Source of the DNA: Halofilum ochraceum
GTDB lineage: Bacteria; Pseudomonadota; Gammaproteobacteria; XJ16; Halofilaceae
DNA length: 64,000 bases
Direction of reading: 5' to 3'
Assembly (NCBI RefSeq): GCF_001614315.2
Contig: NZ_LVEG02000001.1
Span: forward strand, 62,001 to 126,000
The notes beneath the pieces were generated by a model, which saw nothing but the letters and a program-made list of their open reading frames with translations, had not been told where the DNA came from and ran no database searches. This document shows positions 1,504-40,247 of this stretch, one piece after another; position 1 is the first letter of the stretch; every line of letters starts with the position of its first letter. The position numbers and the translations under genes were made by a program.

Positions 1504-3270
1504 TCATCGGTCTGTGCCTGTCGGCTCTGACTGGCCCAACTGTGTGGGATGCCAGGTCACTACTCGGTTGCGGCCGCCACGTTTCGCCTCGTACAAGGCC
1601 TCGTCCGCCCGTCCGTGCAGCGCGTCCATGTCGTCGTCCCCACCCTCGAGTTCGGCAACGCCGAAGCTCATGGTTACGTGCCCGACCGCTGAGAAATCCT
1701 GGTCCTCGACCCGGGCGCGGATCCGTTCCGCGAACGTGGCCGCGTCGGCGCCCGTCGTCTCCGGCGCCACGATCGCGAATTCCTCGCCGCCCCAGCGCGC
1801 GAGCAGATCGGCCGCCCGGGCTTCATGACCGAGCAGTGCGCCCAGTTCGCGCAGAACGGCGTCGCCGGCCTGGTGACCATGGTGATCGTTGACCGCCTTG
1901 AAATGGTCGACATCCATCATGATCAGACTGAGCGGGCGCCCGTAACGGCGGGCCGATTCGATCAGCCCGGCCCCTTTTTCCTCCAGTTGGCGGCGATTGC
2001 CGACCTTCGTAAGGTAATCGACATACAGTGTCTGCAATCCGGTGACGTCGCGAACGACCGCGTAGAAGCCGCGGACGCGGCCGCGGTAATCGCGATCCGG
2101 GGTGTAGTCGCCTTCCACGTACTGCTGGTCGCCGGAACGGAACACGGCCTGGGTCTGGAAGTGGACCGTCTCACCCCTCAGCGCTGCATTCATGTAGGGC
2201 TCGATGGCGGCGAAGCCCTCCTCATCAAGAACGGCACTCAACGCGTGACCGACGAGTCGTTTGCGCGGCAGGCCGAACCAGCGCTCACAGGCCGTGTTGA
2301 CCTCGCGGAAGCAGCCATCCCGGTCGATATACGCGATCATGATCGGCAACGCATCGACCAGTGCCTCGCGCCGGGCACGCTCGGAGCGATAAGTGTGCGC
2401 CGATTCCAGCGCGGCGGCGAGCATGCCGGAGGCGAGCTGCAGCAGATCCCGCTCCGCGCTCGAAAAACGATTGACCGTGCCCGAGTAGACCTTGATGACG
2501 CCGAAACAGCGGTAACCGTGGCAGAGTGGGATCAGGATGCCGGAACGGAATCCCACCGCCCGCGCGGGTTCCGTGGCGACCCGGTCGTCGCGGGCCGTGT
2601 CCTCGCAGATAATGGCCTGAAGTTCCCGGTAACAGACCCCGGAGAGGCTGTGGTCGATCGGAACGCGGGTGCCGAGATGGGCGGCCGCCTGACCGGCAAC
2701 CGCCCGGTAAACCATCTCGCCGCCATCGGGTTCCTCGACGACCGCGCTCTCCGCGCCGCTGATGCTGAGGGCGAGATCAGCCACTTTCTGTCGGACCGTA
2801 TCGATATCCAGACCGCCAGTCGCCAGTTCGCCCTGGACGCGCGCGAGCGCTTCAAGCTCGCCATGTCGCCGCTCCCGCTTGCGGGCACTGGTGACATCGC
2901 GTGTGATCGCAACGAAATGCGTGATCCGCCCGCTGTTTTCCCGGATGGGGCTGATGCGCCACTGCAGCAGGAAAGGCCGGCCGTCACGGCGGTAATTCAC
3001 CACCTCGCCAGCACATTCATCGCCGCTCTCGAGCGCGCGCCGCAGGCGGTCGAGTTGATCGCGATCCGTGTCCGGACCGTGGAGCATACGCGGTGTCTGG
3101 CCGAGCAGTTCGCTGGTGGCGTACCCGGTCATGTCGGCGAAGGCCGGATTGACGTAGACGATCCGGGGGCCGGGCGGGTCCAGACAGGCATCCGTGATCA
3201 CGACCGCGTCGTCGATCTGTTCAAGAATACCCAGTTTGATTCCCGGTAGCGGGTCGGTCATCTCCGGCAT
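1504..3270 (-). CDS. PAS-GAF-PAS diguanylate cyclase with intact GGEEF and I-site
   Basis: A soluble protein of 588 residues. A PAS domain (about 10-130) is followed by a GAF domain (about 140-290), a second PAS domain (about 300-412) and a GGDEF domain (about 415-575). The active site is WGGEEF at 493-498. An RAAD motif five residues upstream (485-488) fits the canonical product-inhibition I-site. It should convert two GTP to c-di-GMP under control of the sensory domains; no membrane segment is visible. It begins 8 bases after the stop of the upstream REC-PAS-GGDEF-EAL gene and is the last gene of a four-gene operon. Catalytic activity is a strong inference from the intact motif. Confidence 0.93.
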   Translation of the reverse strand: MPEMTDPLPGIKLGILEQIDDAVVITDACLDPPGPRIVYVNPAFADMTGYATSELLGQTPRMLHGPDTDRDQLDRLRRALESGDECAGEVVNYRRDGRPFLLQWRISPIRENSGRITHFVAITRDVTSARKRERRHGELEALARVQGELATGGLDIDTVRQKVADLALSISGAESAVVEEPDGGEMVYRAVAGQAAAHLGTRVPIDHSLSGVCYRELQAIICEDTARDDRVATEPARAVGFRSGILIPLCHGYRCFGVIKVYSGTVNRFSSAERDLLQLASGMLAAALESAHTYRSERARREALVDALPIMIAYIDRDGCFREVNTACERWFGLPRKRLVGHALSAVLDEEGFAAIEPYMNAALRGETVHFQTQAVFRSGDQQYVEGDYTPDRDYRGRVRGFYAVVRDVTGLQTLYVDYLTKVGNRRQLEEKGAGLIESARRYGRPLSLIMMDVDHFKAVNDHHGHQAGDAVLRELGALLGHEARAADLLARWGGEEFAIVAPETTGADAATFAERIRARVEDQDFSAVGHVTMSFGVAELEGGDDDMDALHGRADEALYEAKRGGRNRVVTWHPTQLGQSEPTGTDR

Positions 3271-3278
3271 CGTTACGG

Positions 3279-6200
3279 TTACTCGTTCGGAATCTGCAGT
3301 GACGCCTCCCCGCGTCCCGCACGTTCGGTCTGGTATTCCTCGAGAACGGACCCGATCTCCCGCTGCATTCCATCCGCGTCCACCGGTCCGCAGAGCAATC
3401 GATGCACCGCGGCTGCATTGACCGCGCGTTGCACCGCGTCACCCGTGGGGTCAGGAGCGATCAGTACCCGCCGGATCGCCGGGTACAGATCGTGCACTCG
3501 CTGCAGAAGTTCCGTTGCGGCAGGTCCATCCCCGGCGTCCGCCATCACGACCGCCACCGGCGCATTCAGCGCCAAGGCCCGTAATGCGGCCTCCTCGTCG
3601 TGCACGTCTACGATTCGGCAGGGCATGTGCTGCAGTGCGCCCTGAATCGCCGTATGCGTCTCGGGTGTCGCGCTGCAGGCGATGATCATCGGCTGCTCCT
3701 CGGTGTCAGTGGCGGTGACGTCGAATCGCCGGGCGTCCGCGAGCATGCGTGCGACTTCAGGGGCCGTGATGGCGGGTGCGAAATAAAAGCCCTGGACATG
3801 GCGGCATCCCTGCGCCTGGAGGAATCGGACCTGCGCCTCGGTCTCGACCCCCTCCGCGACGGTCTTCATGCCACGGCTTCTGGCCAGTGCCAGTACGGCC
3901 CGCAGGATCGCCGCGTCGCCGGGGTCGCGGGTCACGCCCTCGATAAAGACCCGGTCGATCTTCACCTTGTCGATCGGGAACTTCTTCAGGTAGTTCAGCG
4001 AGGAGTAGCCGGTACCGAAGTCATCGAGTGCAATGGTGACCCCGAGCTCACGCAGCGCATGCAGCGTTCGGGCCGCATCTTCCGGATTGTGCGCCAGTGA
4101 ACTCTCGGTCAATTCCAGTTCGAGGCAACGCGGATCCGCGCCGGTCGCCTGCAGGGCATGGCGGACAACCTCGACGAGGTCTCGCCGTTCGAACTGCACG
4201 AGGGAGAGGTTGACCGCCACGCGGGGAAGGTCGGTGCCGCCGGTGGTGAGTACGGCATCCCACTCGGCGATACGGGCGCAGGCCTCGTGGATCACCCATT
4301 CCCCGACCTCGACGATCAGCCCGGAGCGCTCGAGCTGCGGTATGAACTCGCCGGGCGAAACCGGACCGTGGGACGGGTGTGTCCATCGTAACAGTGCCTC
4401 GAGACCCGATATCCGCCCGGTCGCCAGGTCGATCTGGGGTTGGTATTCGAGATGGAATTCGGTGTGCTCGAGGGCCCGCCGCAGATCCCCTTCGGCCGAC
4501 AGCCACTGGCGTGCCTCTTCGTGCATGGCCGGTGTGTAGAACGCAAGCTGTTCACGGCCGCGTTCCCGTGCCCGGTGCATCGCCATTTCGGCGTGGGCGA
4601 TGAGTTCTTCGCCGGTATGACCGTCCTCGGGGCCGTACGCGACGCCCAGTGTGCCCGTTACCCGCAGTTCGTCATCGTTGAAAGAGAGCGGTTTGCTGAG
4701 CGCCTGCTGGACCCGGGTCGTGGAGGTCTCCGCGCCTTCTTCCGACGGGCCGGTCATCAGGGCGACGACAAAACCGTCGTTTCCGATGCGGGCGACGCTG
4801 GCTGCTGGACCCGCGGCATCGCTCAGTCGGTCCGCGATGGTCTTGAGCACATGGTCGCCGCCCGCATGCCCCCAGGTCTCGTTGACGAACCCGAATCCGT
4901 CGATATCGATGTGCATGACCAGCAGACGCCCGGCAACTGTCGGGGCCTGGGAGAGCATATGGTTGAGCCGATCGATGATCAGTGTCCGGTTCGGCAATTC
5001 CGTGACCGGATCGAAATGCGCGAGCCGCGTGAGTTCGTGCTCCTTCTGCAACTGTTCCGTCACGTCGTACTGCGTGCCGATATAGTGAGAAACCCGCCCT
5101 TCGTCGTCGCGGATCGGGGCGATGCTCATATCGGCGTAATAGAGCTCTCCGGACCGGCGCCGGTTCACGAGCATGCCGTGGAACTCGTGGCCCGCGTCGA
5201 GCGCGTCTTTGAGGCGTTCCCGCACGCCGGGCTCGTTATGGTCCGAGCCCAGCAGTGAGGGCGTCTGTCCGATTACTTCGCTGCCCGTGTAGCCCGTCAT
5301 CCGTTCGAATGCCGGATTGACGTACTCGATGACGCGGTCGGCATCGGTGATGATGATCGCATCGGCGGCCTGTTGTACGGCGCGGGACAGTTTGCGCATC
5401 TCGGCTTCGAACGTGCGGCGCTCGGTTACATCGCGCAGGATTGCATGCAGTTGGTGGTCAGTAGGGCCAAGCAGGACCTCGAGCGTGGCCGGGTCGCCGT
5501 TGCCGCGCAGAATGCTCCATTCGAATTCCTGCGGACCATCGTTCCAGGCCGCCTCGCAGAGCCGCCGCGCCATTTGCGCGGAGTTTTCGCCGTTGGGCTG
5601 GTTTTCCGGTGAAAACGCTTCCAGAGAAAGCCCGACCAGGTCCTCGCGGTGCCGATCGAAAATTCCCGGCGCACGGGGATTGCAGTCGACGATCTCTTCG
5701 CGATCCATGATCAGCACGCCGTTCGGTGCGTCTTCGAACAGGGTCCGGTAGCGCGCTTCGCTTGCCCGCAGCGCCGTCTCGGCGTCCTTGCGCTGCGAGA
5801 TGTCGGCGCTGGCGCCGACCCATTCGGTGATCCTGGACATGTCATCGAGTACTGGAGCCGCCCGGTCGAGGAACCACCCGTAGCCGTTATCATGCCGCCG
5901 CAGGCGATACTCCATGCGGAAAACGTCGCCCGTGTGGATCGCCTCGTGCCATGCCGCCAGGTATGCATCGCGGTCGTCCGGATGGATCGCTTCGAAGGAG
6001 CCCCAGCCGAGCGCCTCCTGTCGTGTATAGCCCGTGTATTCCAGCCAGGCCGGGTCGATCTCGTAGAGGCGGCCGTCCGCGTCGGCCCACCACAGGAAGT
6101 CCGAAGTGGCCGTTACCAGGGAACGATACCGACGCTCGCTCTCCCGCAGCGCCCGTTCGGCCGCGCCGCGCTCCCGCTCTCCGCGCGCTTCCCTGAGTGC

Positions 6201-6566
6201 CCGTTCAACCGATGCACCGAGCCGGTCGATATGGGATTTCGCGACGAAATCTCTGGCGCCGCGGTGCAACAGTTCAACCACGGTCTCTTCGCCGATGGTG
6301 CCCGACACGAGAATGAACGGGATTGCCTGATGACGATCGTGCAGGAGATCGAGCGCGGCGCCTGAATCGAGTCGCGGCATGCCGTGATCGGCCAGGATCA
6401 CGTCCGGTATGTCTCCATCAAGTACGCCGAGCAATTGCTGCTCGTTTTCGGCGCGTCGCCACTCAACCGAGAAGCCGTGGCGTTCCAGCGCGAGCGCGTT
6501 CAGGTGGGCATCGTCCTCGGAGTCTTCGAGGATCAGCACCCGCAGTCTGTTCAGTGATTCCGTCAT
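3279..6566 (-). CDS. REC-PAS-PAS-PAS-GGDEF-EAL protein with extra C-terminal receiver-like domain
   Basis: A protein of 1095 residues. The N-terminal receiver has phosphoacceptor Asp60 (ILADHGMP) and Lys110. Three PAS domains follow (about 140-260, 270-390, 395-510), then GGDEF and EAL. The GGDEF signature is degenerate (GNDGF) and there is no I-site, so cyclase activity is unlikely. The EAL domain keeps GLEALLRW and DDFGTGYSSL, so c-di-GMP hydrolysis is expected. From about residue 965 the chain folds like a second receiver, with an aspartate (VVMADAGDG) but LLCGP where the conserved lysine should be. Its start overlaps the stop of the receiver gene by one base (TGATG), which implies translational coupling. 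It is the probable phosphodiesterase counterpart of the next gene's cyclase. Confidence 0.92.
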   Translation of the reverse strand: MTESLNRLRVLILEDSEDDAHLNALALERHGFSVEWRRAENEQQLLGVLDGDIPDVILADHGMPRLDSGAALDLLHDRHQAIPFILVSGTIGEETVVELLHRGARDFVAKSHIDRLGASVERALREARGERERGAAERALRESERRYRSLVTATSDFLWWADADGRLYEIDPAWLEYTGYTRQEALGWGSFEAIHPDDRDAYLAAWHEAIHTGDVFRMEYRLRRHDNGYGWFLDRAAPVLDDMSRITEWVGASADISQRKDAETALRASEARYRTLFEDAPNGVLIMDREEIVDCNPRAPGIFDRHREDLVGLSLEAFSPENQPNGENSAQMARRLCEAAWNDGPQEFEWSILRGNGDPATLEVLLGPTDHQLHAILRDVTERRTFEAEMRKLSRAVQQAADAIIITDADRVIEYVNPAFERMTGYTGSEVIGQTPSLLGSDHNEPGVRERLKDALDAGHEFHGMLVNRRRSGELYYADMSIAPIRDDEGRVSHYIGTQYDVTEQLQKEHELTRLAHFDPVTELPNRTLIIDRLNHMLSQAPTVAGRLLVMHIDIDGFGFVNETWGHAGGDHVLKTIADRLSDAAGPAASVARIGNDGFVVALMTGPSEEGAETSTTRVQQALSKPLSFNDDELRVTGTLGVAYGPEDGHTGEELIAHAEMAMHRARERGREQLAFYTPAMHEEARQWLSAEGDLRRALEHTEFHLEYQPQIDLATGRISGLEALLRWTHPSHGPVSPGEFIPQLERSGLIVEVGEWVIHEACARIAEWDAVLTTGGTDLPRVAVNLSLVQFERRDLVEVVRHALQATGADPRCLELELTESSLAHNPEDAARTLHALRELGVTIALDDFGTGYSSLNYLKKFPIDKVKIDRVFIEGVTRDPGDAAILRAVLALARSRGMKTVAEGVETEAQVRFLQAQGCRHVQGFYFAPAITAPEVARMLADARRFDVTATDTEEQPMIIACSATPETHTAIQGALQHMPCRIVDVHDEEAALRALALNAPVAVVMADAGDGPAATELLQRVHDLYPAIRRVLIAPDPTGDAVQRAVNAAAVHRLLCGPVDADGMQREIGSVLEEYQTERAGRGEASLQIPNE

Positions 6567-11881: not shown

Positions 11882-13558
11882 CTATCGAGGGTGGGCGGCC
11901 TCGCGGGCCGTCGCCCGGTCCCGGGCCTGCCGCCAGTCCAGATATTCCTGCCCCGGCATCGGGCGGGCAAAATAGAAGCCCTGCAGCAGATCGCAGCCCA
12001 GTTCCCGGAGAATCTCCCGCTGCCCGGCCTTCTCGACCCCTTCCGCGACCACTTCCAGATCGAGGGCGTGGCCGACATCGATCATGCAGGCCATCAGGCG
12101 CTGTGCCCTGTCATCGTCTTCGAGATCGCGCACGAAGGCCCGGTCGATCTTGAGTCCGGTGAGCGGCAGTGTCCGCAGATACTCGAACGATGAGTACCCG
12201 GTTCCGAAATCGTCCAGACTGACGTGGAAGCCGCAGCGCCGGAGCTGCTCGATGGCTTCTCCGGCGGCGACCGGGTCGCGTACGATCGCGCCCTCGGTGA
12301 TTTCGATCTCGATACGCCCTGCCGGGAGGCCCCCGTAGGCCGCCATGCGCCCGATCGAGGCGATCAGGTTCTGGTCAATCAGATCACGCGCGGTGATGTT
12401 GATGCTGATCCGCTGTCTGCAATGCTTTACGAAGCCGAATGCCGACTGTGCGACGAACCGGGTCATGGGGCCGATCAATGCCGAGCATTCGACCCGCGGC
12501 ATGAACTGATCCGGTGGGATGATTCCGCCATCGGCCGGGCTGCGCCAGCGCACCAGCGCCTCACAGCCCGCGGGTTCTCCGGTCTCTGCCCGGACTTTGG
12601 GCTGATAGTGCAGTTCGAACTCGCCGTTCTCTATGCCGCGGCGCACGCCGGCGAGGAGGCGGATCGTCTCACCGGTGCGGCGCTCCTGCTCGGGGGCATA
12701 CCGGCACACGGTCTGCTGCCGCTCGATCGCCGAGAACAGCGCAACGCGGGCCTGCCGGATCAGTTCGCGCGCCGACGTGCCCGGTTCCACGGTGCCAGCA
12801 CGGCCAACGACGAGTTCAACATGGACGGGGATCCCGTATACCTCGACGGAGTCTTCCGTGATCTGCAGCAGATCCTCCGCATTCAGCCCGTCCGTTGCCG
12901 TGTCCTCTTGCCGCAGGACGACGATCTCCGAGGCGCTGAAGCGGTAGACCTCCAGATCCGGATCGATCCCGCGACGGATTCGTCTGGCGAGGATCGTCAC
13001 GAGCTGGTCGGCGGCACTGACGCCGGCGGCCTCCATGATCTCGCCCAGATCGACGATCCGGATCAGCGCGACAAACGGCGCGTCGGCGCGATCGACGTCA
13101 TCGGTCTCGAGCGCCTCGAGCAGGGCCGTCTTGTTCGGCAGTCCGCTGTCAGCGTCCACGCGGGCGTCCCGTTCACGAGCCCGGCCCTGGCGGCGAATGA
13201 ACTGGAACAGCATCCCGGTAAATGCACCCAGACCGGTATAGAAACCGATCCGGATCAGCCAGTTGGTGGTGTCCTGCGCGACGCCCGTCGCGGTATCGAG
13301 CGGCATCACCGGCCCAAGCAGAAGCCCGCCGACCAGACCGCCGATGATCCCGCCGACGACACGGAAACGCGCCGCCGCGAGCAGTACCGGGATGAGCATC
13401 AGATACGGCCAGGCGCGCTGTGTACCACCCGTGGCATAGACGAGCAGCCAGGCGCCGGCGAACAGCAGGGCCGTCAGGGCCAGGATGAGGATGGCGTTGA
13501 GGCGAGGTTGGTGTCGTAAACGTCCTGTCGCCGCGCGCAAAGCGTTCCATTGCATCAA
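11882..13558 (-). CDS. membrane GGDEF-EAL protein, probable c-di-GMP phosphodiesterase
   Basis: 558 residues. The N-terminus holds about four hydrophobic helices (about 20-125: ILILALTALLF, AWPYLMLIPVLLA, GGIIGGLVGGLLLG, YTGLGAFTGMLF). A GGDEF-like domain (about 135-290) has a destroyed signature (FSASEI in place of GGDEF). The EAL domain (about 300-545) keeps CEALVRW, the DDFGTGYSSFEYL loop and EGVEKAGQ. It should therefore hydrolyse c-di-GMP only. A second Met one codon downstream is an equally possible start. Confidence 0.9.
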   Translation of the reverse strand: MMQWNALRAATGRLRHQPRLNAILILALTALLFAGAWLLVYATGGTQRAWPYLMLIPVLLAAARFRVVGGIIGGLVGGLLLGPVMPLDTATGVAQDTTNWLIRIGFYTGLGAFTGMLFQFIRRQGRARERDARVDADSGLPNKTALLEALETDDVDRADAPFVALIRIVDLGEIMEAAGVSAADQLVTILARRIRRGIDPDLEVYRFSASEIVVLRQEDTATDGLNAEDLLQITEDSVEVYGIPVHVELVVGRAGTVEPGTSARELIRQARVALFSAIERQQTVCRYAPEQERRTGETIRLLAGVRRGIENGEFELHYQPKVRAETGEPAGCEALVRWRSPADGGIIPPDQFMPRVECSALIGPMTRFVAQSAFGFVKHCRQRISINITARDLIDQNLIASIGRMAAYGGLPAGRIEIEITEGAIVRDPVAAGEAIEQLRRCGFHVSLDDFGTGYSSFEYLRTLPLTGLKIDRAFVRDLEDDDRAQRLMACMIDVGHALDLEVVAEGVEKAGQREILRELGCDLLQGFYFARPMPGQEYLDWRQARDRATAREAAHPR

Positions 13559-36851: not shown

Positions 36852-39176
36852 TCATTGTGTCCGCGGGCCGTCGCCGTGCCCGTGTGCGTGTGGGTGGCTT
36901 GCCCCGCCTGCGCCCCCGAGAAGCTCCCGCAGAAGCTCGGCGGGGAGTGGTTTGCTGAAGTGGAATCCCTGCCCGTAGCGGCAGCCCATCGCCTGCAGTA
37001 CATGATGCTGTTCCGCGGTCTCGATGCCCTCGGCGACCGCCCGCACGCGGAGATTCTCCGCCAGTTGGACGATACTGCGCACGATAGTGTGTTCCGACGG
37101 GTCGCTGGAGAGGCCAAGCACGAAGTCCTTGTCGATCTTCAGCGTCGTGATCGGGAGATGCTTGAGCCGGCTCAACGATGAATAACCGATTCCGAAATCG
37201 TCGAGCGCGATCCCCATGCCCCGGTCGTGCAACTCCCGGATGATGTGCTCGGTACGCGCCGGATCGGTCATCATCACGCTCTCGGTTACTTCCAGTTCGA
37301 AGCGCTCCGGTGTCGCGCCACAGGCTGCCATGATGTCCGCGAATTCGTTCGGCAGACGGGCGAGCAGCAACTGGTGGACGGAGAGATTGACGGACATATA
37401 CGGCGTCAGCCCCTCGTCCTCCCACGCCCGCGCCTGTCGGCACGCGGCCTCGAACACGAGGCGACCGAGGCGTTCCATCAGCCCGGTCTCTTCCGCGAGC
37501 GGGATGAACGCGTCGGGCGCGAGCAGGGAGCCGTCCTCCTGAGGCCAGCGGACCAGTGCTTCCACACCGACCGGCCTGGCCGATCCGAGTTCGACAATGG
37601 GCTGGTAATGGAGGACGAATCCGTCCTGATCGATGGCGCGGCGCAGGCGGGATTCCAGCGACAGTCGCCGGGTGTGGCGTTCGGTCAGCCCGCCCTGGTA
37701 GAACGCATGGGTACTGCCGCCGGCCTCCTTGGCCTGGCGCATGGCCGTGTCGGCCTGGCGGAGCGTGGCGGAAAGATCTTCGGCGGCGCCCACATCCATC
37801 CGGCTGATGCCGACGCTGGCGCCGAGATAGTATTCGTATCCGGCCAGCTCAATGGGGCGGCGCATCGTCTCGATAATACGCTGCGCGGTACGAGTCGCGC
37901 GCGCCTCGAGGGCATCGGTGCCGTCCTGTTCTCCGTCACCGCCGAGTTCCTGGATCAGGAGAATGAATTCGTCCCCGGCCTGGCGGGCGAGCAGGTCGCT
38001 TGACCGCACCACGGTCTGCAGCCGTTGCACGGCCTGGCGCAGGAGCTGGTCCCCGGCCTCGTGTCCGGTCGTGTTGTTGACGACCTTGAACCGGTCCAGG
38101 TTGATGACCATCACGGCCACGGCGGGCGTCGCGGTCTCGCACTCGTTGAGTTCCCGCATCCGCTGGAGCAGCCGGTTGCGGTTCGGCAGACCGGTGAGCC
38201 GATCAAAATGCGTCAGGTAACGGCACTCGCGTTCCGCCCGGTCACGGGCGCGCTGCGTGCGTCGCGCGGCCAGGCCGTAGCCCAGATTGTTGGCCGTGCG
38301 CTGAAGCAGTTCCGTTTCGTCCTGATCGAACGCATCGGGATCGCGTGCCGCCACGGCCAGGACGCCGTCGACGAGTCCCTCGATATGGATCGGCAGCAGG
38401 CTGGCGGAGCCGAAGCCGGCTGCGTGCAGATGGTGTGCCCACCGAGCCGCGTCGCCCTCCGCGCTCGCCGGCTCGTTCAACACTTGCGCAAGGCCGCCTG
38501 CGCGCACGCCCGCAGCGAGTGGCGCGAACTCGGGGCCGGACAGGGCGATGGGATCGCCGTGGGTTCCGACTGGCACGCAGGCCGCCTCGTGGAGGTGTTC
38601 ACTGTCATCCCAGAGGCCGACCCGGACCAACGGGTACCCCGCGTGTTCGGCAATGATCCGGCACATGCCCTGGAGCAGCTCGGGCTCCGACTGCGTGCCC
38701 ACGAGCAATTCATTGCCGGCACTCAACATCCGTAACGCGCGGCCGGTACGACGGCGGGCCTCGGCAAGATTCTCCGCGTGCCGGGCAATCGTGAGCTGTT
38801 GCCGTCTCAGCGTGAGGAGGTTACGGCATCGTGCCTGACATTCCTGGAGATCGAGGGGTTTTGTCAGGAAATCGGTGGCGCCGGCCTCGAGGGCGCGGTA
38901 TCGCAGATCGGCGTCATCGACGATCGTGATCACGATGATCGGGATGCCCGTGCAGGCGGGTATTCCTTTCAGCGCATCGAGAAAGGCGAGACCGTCGATA
39001 TCGGGCATGCGGTAATCGACGAGGATCAGGTCGGGCTGGTTGTCCCGCAGCCACGTGAGTGCCTCCTGCGCATGACAGAAGGCGTGCACCGCGAGGTCGT
39101 CCGCGAGATTGCGGATCATCCGGTCAAGTATATGGCGGTCCGTCGCCTGATCGTCGATGATTACGACGTTCGGCAT
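36852..39176 (-). CDS. RpfG-like receiver fused to GAF-GGDEF-EAL (DSF output, non-HD-GYP)
   Basis: 774 residues. A receiver domain (about 1-125; Asp54 in LILVDYRMPDIDG, Lys106 in DFLTKPLD) begins PNVVIIDDQ and resembles the RpfG receiver, but the output is not HD-GYP. A GAF domain (about 150-300) is followed by GGDEF (about 310-490) with AGDEF at 400-404 and an I-site RSSD five residues before it. The EAL domain (about 500-750) keeps VEALVRW, DDFGIGYSSL and EGIETAEQ. The tail is His-rich (HPHAHGHGDG). Both activities are possible. Its place between rpfF and rpfC suggests it is the response regulator that converts the DSF signal into a c-di-GMP change. Confidence 0.92.
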   Translation of the reverse strand: MPNVVIIDDQATDRHILDRMIRNLADDLAVHAFCHAQEALTWLRDNQPDLILVDYRMPDIDGLAFLDALKGIPACTGIPIIVITIVDDADLRYRALEAGATDFLTKPLDLQECQARCRNLLTLRRQQLTIARHAENLAEARRRTGRALRMLSAGNELLVGTQSEPELLQGMCRIIAEHAGYPLVRVGLWDDSEHLHEAACVPVGTHGDPIALSGPEFAPLAAGVRAGGLAQVLNEPASAEGDAARWAHHLHAAGFGSASLLPIHIEGLVDGVLAVAARDPDAFDQDETELLQRTANNLGYGLAARRTQRARDRAERECRYLTHFDRLTGLPNRNRLLQRMRELNECETATPAVAVMVINLDRFKVVNNTTGHEAGDQLLRQAVQRLQTVVRSSDLLARQAGDEFILLIQELGGDGEQDGTDALEARATRTAQRIIETMRRPIELAGYEYYLGASVGISRMDVGAAEDLSATLRQADTAMRQAKEAGGSTHAFYQGGLTERHTRRLSLESRLRRAIDQDGFVLHYQPIVELGSARPVGVEALVRWPQEDGSLLAPDAFIPLAEETGLMERLGRLVFEAACRQARAWEDEGLTPYMSVNLSVHQLLLARLPNEFADIMAACGATPERFELEVTESVMMTDPARTEHIIRELHDRGMGIALDDFGIGYSSLSRLKHLPITTLKIDKDFVLGLSSDPSEHTIVRSIVQLAENLRVRAVAEGIETAEQHHVLQAMGCRYGQGFHFSKPLPAELLRELLGGAGGASHPHAHGHGDGPRTQ

Positions 39177-39310
39177 GCGACATGCACCCGTACGCGCCGG
39201 CAACAATGCGGGTGCCGGGAACCCGATGATGCGCGCGCAGCCGCCGCATCAGTGAAAGCCTACTCCTTCCACCAGGGCGACGACAAAGTGTGTTGGGGCC
39301 AGTCCTTCGG

Positions 39311-39352
39311 CGGGACCGGCCGGCCCATCACCGATCGGCACGGCCGGTCCCG
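39311..39352 (-). terminator. inverted repeat after rpfF, likely terminator or attenuator
   Basis: A perfect 12-bp inverted repeat (CGGGACCGGCCG / CGGCCGGTCCCG) with an 18-base loop lies eight bases after the rpfF stop. There is no T tract. It suggests that synthase expression is at least partly separated from the response regulator and kinase genes downstream. Confidence 0.55.
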
Positions 39353-39359
39353 CGACCGG

Positions 39360-40247
39360 TCAATTGGCCTGCCGTACTCCCTCGCCGATCCGGCGATCCT
39401 GAGCGCGCACGAGTCGCTCCATGGTTCGGATGTTGCGCTCATCGAGGCGCAGCGCCGAGTCGACCCACAGTTCCGTGATGTCCCGGAGTTCCTCGAACGG
39501 CACGCGCGTGTGCGTTTCGCGGATCCGGTTCATCAGTCCGTGGACGTGATGATGCTTGTCCGCGTCCCGCATGTACGCGCGGAGCGTCTCCTGGCCCTGA
39601 CCGGACTCCGCCAGCACATCCACCACGCCCATTTCGTACAGATCCTCCGCTTCATAAAGCGTGCCGCTGAGAATCAGGCGCTCCGCGAGCGATGGCGCGA
39701 TCTTTCGCGAGAGGAAACTGTAGGCACCCATCCCCGGGAACAGATTGAACAGCACCTCGGGGAAGCCCATCTGCGTACCGCGTTCCGCGATCAGCACGTT
39801 CGCGGCCAGTGCGGCCTCGAAACCACCGCCCTGGGCGCGCCCCTGCACCAGGGCGATCGAGGTCACGGGGGCACCAAAGCCGCAGGAGAATGAATGCGTG
39901 GCATGAATACATGCAAGTGCGTATTCCATGAGGCCATCTCTGTCACCGGCCCGAATCAGTTCGACGAAGCGATTCAGGTCCCCGCCGAAGTTGAAGATGT
40001 CCGGCATGGCGGACGTCAGCACGGCGTAGCGAATCGCGGATTGATCGGTCTCCGGAACCTCTCGATTGCCGAGTTCAGCGACGGATGCACGCCACTGATC
40101 GATATCCGCCAGCAGCCCGGGTGTGAAGCTGGGCCGTGGGGTGGGATGCATCGCGAGAATCGATGCCCCGGTTTCGGGGTCCACATGGATCGTGGCCTGA
40201 TCGGTGGACGGATGCTCGGTGGTCGGGAAGTTGACGAGATTATCCAT
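39360..40247 (-). CDS. rpfF: RpfF-like DSF synthase (enoyl-CoA hydratase/thioesterase fold)
   Basis: 295 residues of the crotonase fold. The two catalytic glutamates expected for RpfF are present at the correct 20-residue spacing: Glu144 in GGFEAAL and Glu164 in MGFPEVLFNLFPGMGAYS. RpfF converts 3-hydroxyacyl-ACP to the cis-2-unsaturated fatty acid DSF and releases it. Its length matches the family (about 290). ATG at 40247 has GGGAG seven bases upstream. The downstream RpfG-like and RpfC genes support the DSF assignment over a degradative crotonase. Confidence 0.94.
   Translation of the reverse strand: MDNLVNFPTTEHPSTDQATIHVDPETGASILAMHPTPRPSFTPGLLADIDQWRASVAELGNREVPETDQSAIRYAVLTSAMPDIFNFGGDLNRFVELIRAGDRDGLMEYALACIHATHSFSCGFGAPVTSIALVQGRAQGGGFEAALAANVLIAERGTQMGFPEVLFNLFPGMGAYSFLSRKIAPSLAERLILSGTLYEAEDLYEMGVVDVLAESGQGQETLRAYMRDADKHHHVHGLMNRIRETHTRVPFEELRDITELWVDSALRLDERNIRTMERLVRAQDRRIGEGVRQAN

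Follow-up and report, generated by a model that had tools for sequence, protein, structure and literature searches.

Results

A REC-GAF-GGDEF-EAL response regulator between rpfF and rpfC

The gene studied here lies on the minus strand at 36852..39176 of the window, the 64,000-nucleotide stretch of DNA that was analysed, and encodes a response regulator of 774 aa from an ATG; an alternative TTG start would add 10 aa. Four domains were called with Pfam, all with matches exceeding the gathering cut-offs, and follow each other in the order REC-GAF-GGDEF-EAL: an RpfG-type receiver (Response_reg, aa 4-116, 38829..39167), a GAF domain (GAF_2, aa 162-299, 38280..38693), a GGDEF domain that is probably catalytically dead (aa 323-487, 37716..38210) and an EAL domain (aa 510-743, 36948..37649). 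The original prediction had placed a receiver and a GAF domain ahead of GGDEF-EAL, which agrees with this order. It had also correctly read an AGDEF motif (aa 400-404, 37965..37979), an RSSD sequence of the RxxD I-site type five residues before it (aa 391-394, 37995..38006, with LLARQ as spacer), the EAL signature (EAL at 539-541, DDFGIGYSSL from 659) and Asp54 as acceptor residue of the receiver. What it overlooked is the Asn at codon 359 (38100..38102, minus strand), the position of a metal-binding Asp in the cyclase, and the identity of the two neighbouring genes. The His-rich tail to which it drew attention does exist (HPHAHGHGDG, aa 761-770) but is not conserved, being absent from the sole orthologue (KHPHSVRDGQRSR), and appears incidental.

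The regulator gene stands in the slot of rpfG within an rpf-type (DSF) cluster, an assignment that follows from the RpfF match of the upstream product and from the domains and sensor region of the downstream product. The upstream neighbour (P0003, 39360..40247, minus strand) encodes an RpfF-type DSF synthase with a crotonase fold, which matches the solved RpfF structure 3m6m with E = 7e-69 and both catalytic Glu residues aligned; it scores 266 bits against the NCBIfam RpfF model, below the equivalog cut-off of 550. The downstream neighbour (P0002, 34217..36742, minus strand) encodes an RpfC-type hybrid histidine kinase with a hydrophobic RpfC-like sensor region, HisKA, HATPase, REC and Hpt, and its N-terminal region can be aligned with 47 other RpfC-like sensor regions. 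In Xanthomonas RpfC, residues R15, D17, S18, E19 and Q22 are essential for DSF sensing, and S18T is tolerated (PMC5391125). The corresponding residues of P0002 are P, D, T, E and Q, so that four of the five positions carry D, T (for S), E and Q while Arg15 is replaced by Pro.

All three genes are co-directional, unlike the usual convergent rpfF/rpfGC layout. The gaps around the regulator gene measure 183 and 109 bp, which does not prove an operon. The rpfF-regulator gap (39177-39362) contains a GC-rich stem-loop directly past the rpfF stop, partly conserved and without a T run (z = -1.97), and a block of about 40 bp just ahead of the regulator start codon is strongly conserved in a second species. 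A scan for sigma-70 promoters gave no match.

Conservation and paralogue

The arrangement is known from two species of the genus, with one genome sampled per species. The orthologue in the second species shares 87% identity with the regulator and the gene order rpfF, regulator, rpfC is identical; in a third genome of the genus no RpfF was found at the threshold used. A search of the genome contigs with the whole protein retrieved this orthologue and otherwise only distant GGDEF-EAL or receiver proteins. From comparison with the orthologue, every domain of the regulator is under purifying selection, with dN/dS values of 0.056 for EAL, 0.085 for REC, 0.105 for GGDEF and 0.190 for GAF.

According to the GGDEF-EAL trees, the nearest relative of the regulator in this part is a paralogue of its own genus (G000:C17, P0004; L096:4577-7024), which joins it with a support of 100/98. 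The two proteins are 41% identical from residue 94 onwards, a stretch that spans a receiver-like end, GAF, GGDEF and EAL. The paralogue has no receiver match in Pfam; its N-terminal part is receiver-like and degenerate, possibly a pseudo-receiver. Since it carries a receiver-like end of its own, an origin of the regulator by simple fusion of a receiver to a paralogue output is weakened. No RpfF or RpfC was found in its surroundings.

The receiver is of RpfG type

The receiver of the regulator is 45-60% identical to those of REC-HD-GYP RpfGs. With its first 125 residues alone as query, 274 genomes of the class yielded the orthologue at 244 bits and then matches of at most 157 bits (60% identity). 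Outside the genus, 28 of the matching loci were examined, and every one encodes a REC-HD-GYP protein, in many cases with an adjoining RpfC homologue. In a tree of 82 receivers, where columns are few and inner forks mostly unresolved, the regulator and its orthologue grouped with 52 HD-GYP receivers and five from REC-PAS-GGDEF-EAL proteins, and this RpfG-side branch was split from 23 other receivers with a support of 93/92. Residues D8, D9, D54, T84 and K106 are intact. The description of the receiver as RpfG-like thus holds in a strict sense, since it groups with true RpfG receivers and its gene sits in an rpfF-rpfC cluster.

Searches for HD-GYP domains and receivers detected no REC-HD-GYP RpfG in this genome. 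It encodes five HD-GYP domains, and the proteins examined show no receiver (one, scanned with Pfam, is DUF3391-HD); apart from the regulator itself, the receiver query found only one 65-bit receiver. With an RpfG-type receiver in the rpf cluster of a genome in which no REC-HD-GYP RpfG was found, we infer that GAF-GGDEF-EAL has taken the place of the HD-GYP output in this regulator of DSF quorum sensing.

One could suppose instead that an unrelated two-component c-di-GMP regulator merely happens to be located in the rpf cluster, its true kinase being encoded elsewhere. The gene order, unlike that of standard clusters, would fit such an accident, as would the existence of rpfF-rpfC regions devoid of a nearby RpfG. 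We nevertheless consider it very unlikely, as an unrelated regulator is not expected to have a receiver of RpfG type and the second species has the three genes in the same order.

The regions just mentioned come from a survey of the class, in which about 22 of the regions inspected had a REC-HD-GYP gene in the vicinity of rpfF and rpfC; several other rpfF-rpfC regions had no RpfG within about 9 kb. RpfC therefore need not always pair with a neighbour. The survey was done by BLAST with queries derived from the window, so that distant neighbours may have been missed; clusters near contig ends are incomplete in it. The closest RpfFs outside the genus (65-68% identity, L077 and L078 in genomes G123 and G237) have an adjoining rpfC, and in these two genomes no RpfG-type receiver was found, the best receiver match being 57 bits. 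In another genome, G084, rpfG and rpfC are separated by an additional gene (L084:5292-6437), which encodes a 381-aa protein with an RpfC-like sensor region and a GGDEF domain, possibly a DSF-sensing cyclase.

An intact EAL domain and a GGDEF domain lacking a metal ligand

The EAL domain has retained E539, N597, E629, E632, D659, D660, K680, E716, E719 and Q736, which we take to be the metal-binding and catalytic residues as in EAL structures. Since the full catalytic signature is kept, the domain should be active.

The GGDEF domain presents a different picture. In the ungapped alignment from which the correspondence was read, N359 of the regulator occupies the position of PleD D327, a metal ligand reported to be essential (PMC7288161); the regulator reads INLDRFK where MorA and MucR have DLDRFK. 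Both the Asn and the AGDEF recur in the orthologue, whereas the C17 paralogue has the canonical IDLDRFK and GGDEF. Among the 46 GGDEF matches in the genome, 39 others could be aligned with the regulator and all 39, those with degenerate motifs included, keep the metal Asp; none has Asn. The regulator therefore departs from the residue set of active cyclases at two points, N359 for D327 and AGDEF for GGDEF. In addition, the equivalent of R446 is Gly. LapD, too, is altered at the D327 position, one of the changes listed as inactivating it (PMC3032553). To judge from these residues the GGDEF domain is probably catalytically dead, though some weak cyclase activity could persist with Asn as the metal-site residue. 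Its dN/dS of 0.105 indicates continued purifying selection, so it probably retains a structural or regulatory use.

These observations bear directly on the proposal with which the locus was first described, a bifunctional enzyme whose AGDEF cyclase and EAL phosphodiesterase would both be active, with phosphorylation choosing between synthesis and hydrolysis. Its premise that AGDEF variants can be active has a precedent in Vibrio cholerae VCA0965, as far as the citing statements in PMC7642852 and PMC12900916 go; the regulator has in addition lost the essential D327 equivalent. Dual-activity REC-GGDEF-EAL regulators exist, Lpl0329 being one according to the citing statement in PMC11841396, and the guanine-binding residues N367 and D376 as well as D402/E403 are intact here in a domain under selection. 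Against this, both species have lost the metal ligand, which the paralogue and every other aligned GGDEF domain of the genome have retained, and a switch of this kind is therefore improbable. The accompanying contrast with a phosphodiesterase-only RpfG was probably the wrong way round: with an Asn at the D327 position and an intact EAL domain, the regulator is more likely to be phosphodiesterase-only, as RpfG is, and to follow the same logic by means of another enzyme.

A dead GGDEF domain may still gate its EAL partner, through GTP bound in the pocket or c-di-GMP bound at the I-site, so that the regulator would integrate DSF, the GAF ligand and GTP or c-di-GMP. Caulobacter CC3396/PdeA is reportedly an EAL phosphodiesterase tuned by its GGDEF domain in this manner. 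N367, D376 and the RSSD I-site have been kept, and dN/dS is low (0.105), in spite of the incomplete catalytic set. On the other hand, the RxxD motif is ordinary for this genome, occurring in 33 of the 39 other aligned GGDEF domains, GTP binding, too, may be prevented once the metal ligand is lost, and the constraint may be structural alone. We regard gating as a tentative proposal; it is mostly compatible with an EAL-phosphodiesterase explanation, of which it would be a refinement.

A similar receiver-output combination in another class

A phylum-wide receiver search of 398 genomes revealed five RpfG-type receivers in frames of >700 aa, all of them in REC-PAS_4-GGDEF-EAL proteins whose hosts, outside the class, are presumably Alphaproteobacteria. 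In three genomes (G357, G522 and G639) the gene is found with rpfF and rpfC in the convergent layout, in G452 it lies beside rpfC, and in G604 the fifth such gene has neither rpfF nor rpfC as neighbour. The four genes beside rpfC (L179:7393-9549, L180:7774-9921, L181:8684-10885 and L182:8892-11054) resemble the regulator gene in that an RpfG-type receiver is fused to GGDEF-EAL next to rpfC. They differ from it by a PAS instead of a GAF domain and by retaining DLD and GGDEF. The conserved Lys of the receiver is replaced by Ser or Ala in the REC-PAS-GGDEF-EAL proteins, by Ser in the four beside rpfC, where it may alter phosphorylation. The REC-PAS-GGDEF-EAL gene at L183:8894-11044, which has no rpfF or rpfC within about 9 kb, encodes a degenerate receiver together with NLDRFR and GADEF and thus, like the regulator, has Asn for Asp at the metal site of the GGDEF domain.

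In the GGDEF-EAL trees the regulator stands with the C17 paralogue, apart from the REC-PAS-GGDEF-EAL proteins. This, together with PAS versus GAF, favours separate origins of the two versions. Forcing the regulator and the REC-PAS-GGDEF-EAL proteins into one clade gave p-AU = 0.30 for the receivers, and for GGDEF-EAL 0.46 with a quick tree and 0.088 with a careful tree of fewer rows. Since values of 0.30 and 0.088 permit a common origin, separate output exchanges are likely but not proven.

Discussion

We propose that the regulator is an EAL-type c-di-GMP phosphodiesterase of a DSF cluster, phosphorylated by RpfC and carrying a GGDEF domain that does not synthesize c-di-GMP; we would give this reading a probability of roughly two in three. 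Its foundation, as read from the sequence, is the domain order, the ancestry of the receiver, the cluster, the intact receiver and EAL sites and the lost cyclase metal Asp. RpfF would make a cis-2-unsaturated fatty acid, which RpfC would sense, passing phosphate via its own REC and Hpt to Asp54 of the regulator. Phosphorylation, modulated by a ligand of the GAF domain, would presumably activate the EAL domain, which would then hydrolyse c-di-GMP to pGpG, while the GGDEF domain, making no c-di-GMP, would have been retained for a structural or regulatory role. The regulator would in this way take over the job of RpfG, EAL replacing HD-GYP.

A 2015 review distinguishes two core DSF systems, RpfF-RpfC-RpfG with an HD-GYP output and RpfR-RpfF (PMC4504480). 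With Xanthomonas RpfG of the RpfC/RpfG system, the regulator shares the RpfG-type receiver, the adjacent rpfC and rpfF and, as expected from its residues, a c-di-GMP phosphodiesterase output. It differs in having EAL for HD-GYP, an extra GAF and a degenerate GGDEF domain, and co-directional genes; because Pfam found no HD or HD-GYP domain in it, it is not an RpfG. RpfR of Burkholderia and Cronobacter (FI-PAS-GGDEF-EAL) is likewise a GGDEF-EAL enzyme in an RpfF DSF system and lowers c-di-GMP on sensing the signal. RpfR binds the signal directly through its PAS domain, with neither a receiver nor RpfC, whereas the regulator would rely on an RpfC-type kinase. Nor is the regulator an RpfR, since Pfam detected no N-terminal FI domain or DSF-binding PAS in it and REC and GAF stand in their place. 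Legionella Lpl0329 likewise combines GGDEF and EAL domains in a response regulator and is not known from a DSF cluster. It is described as bifunctional and controlled by Lpl0330 in the statement of PMC11841396 that cites the work.

In the open-access papers searched, among which most subscription journals are not represented, we found no earlier description of an EAL-type replacement of RpfG. The cluster described here pairs an RpfC relay with an EAL enzyme, and proteins of another class show a comparable change. DSF signalling thus appears to conserve its effect, a lowering of c-di-GMP in the presence of the signal, while the enzyme responsible can be replaced. A natural experiment is also at hand, since one family of receivers, driven by one family of kinases, is found with either an HD-GYP or an EAL output. 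A more speculative extension, which we hold to be doubtful as a whole, is a third DSF layout in which the RpfC phosphorelay ends in an EAL phosphodiesterase, the dead GGDEF and the GAF domain serve as extra inputs that make quorum control of c-di-GMP conditional on GTP, c-di-GMP or the GAF ligand, and the output domain was exchanged separately from the PAS version.

The window contains further c-di-GMP genes. Two neighbouring genes at 1504-6566 encode a PAS-GAF-PAS-GGDEF protein (588 aa) and a REC-PAS-GGDEF-EAL protein (1095 aa). At 11882-13558, a 558-aa protein matches EAL with 217 bits and GGDEF very weakly (39 bits), and is probably a degenerate GGDEF domain with EAL.
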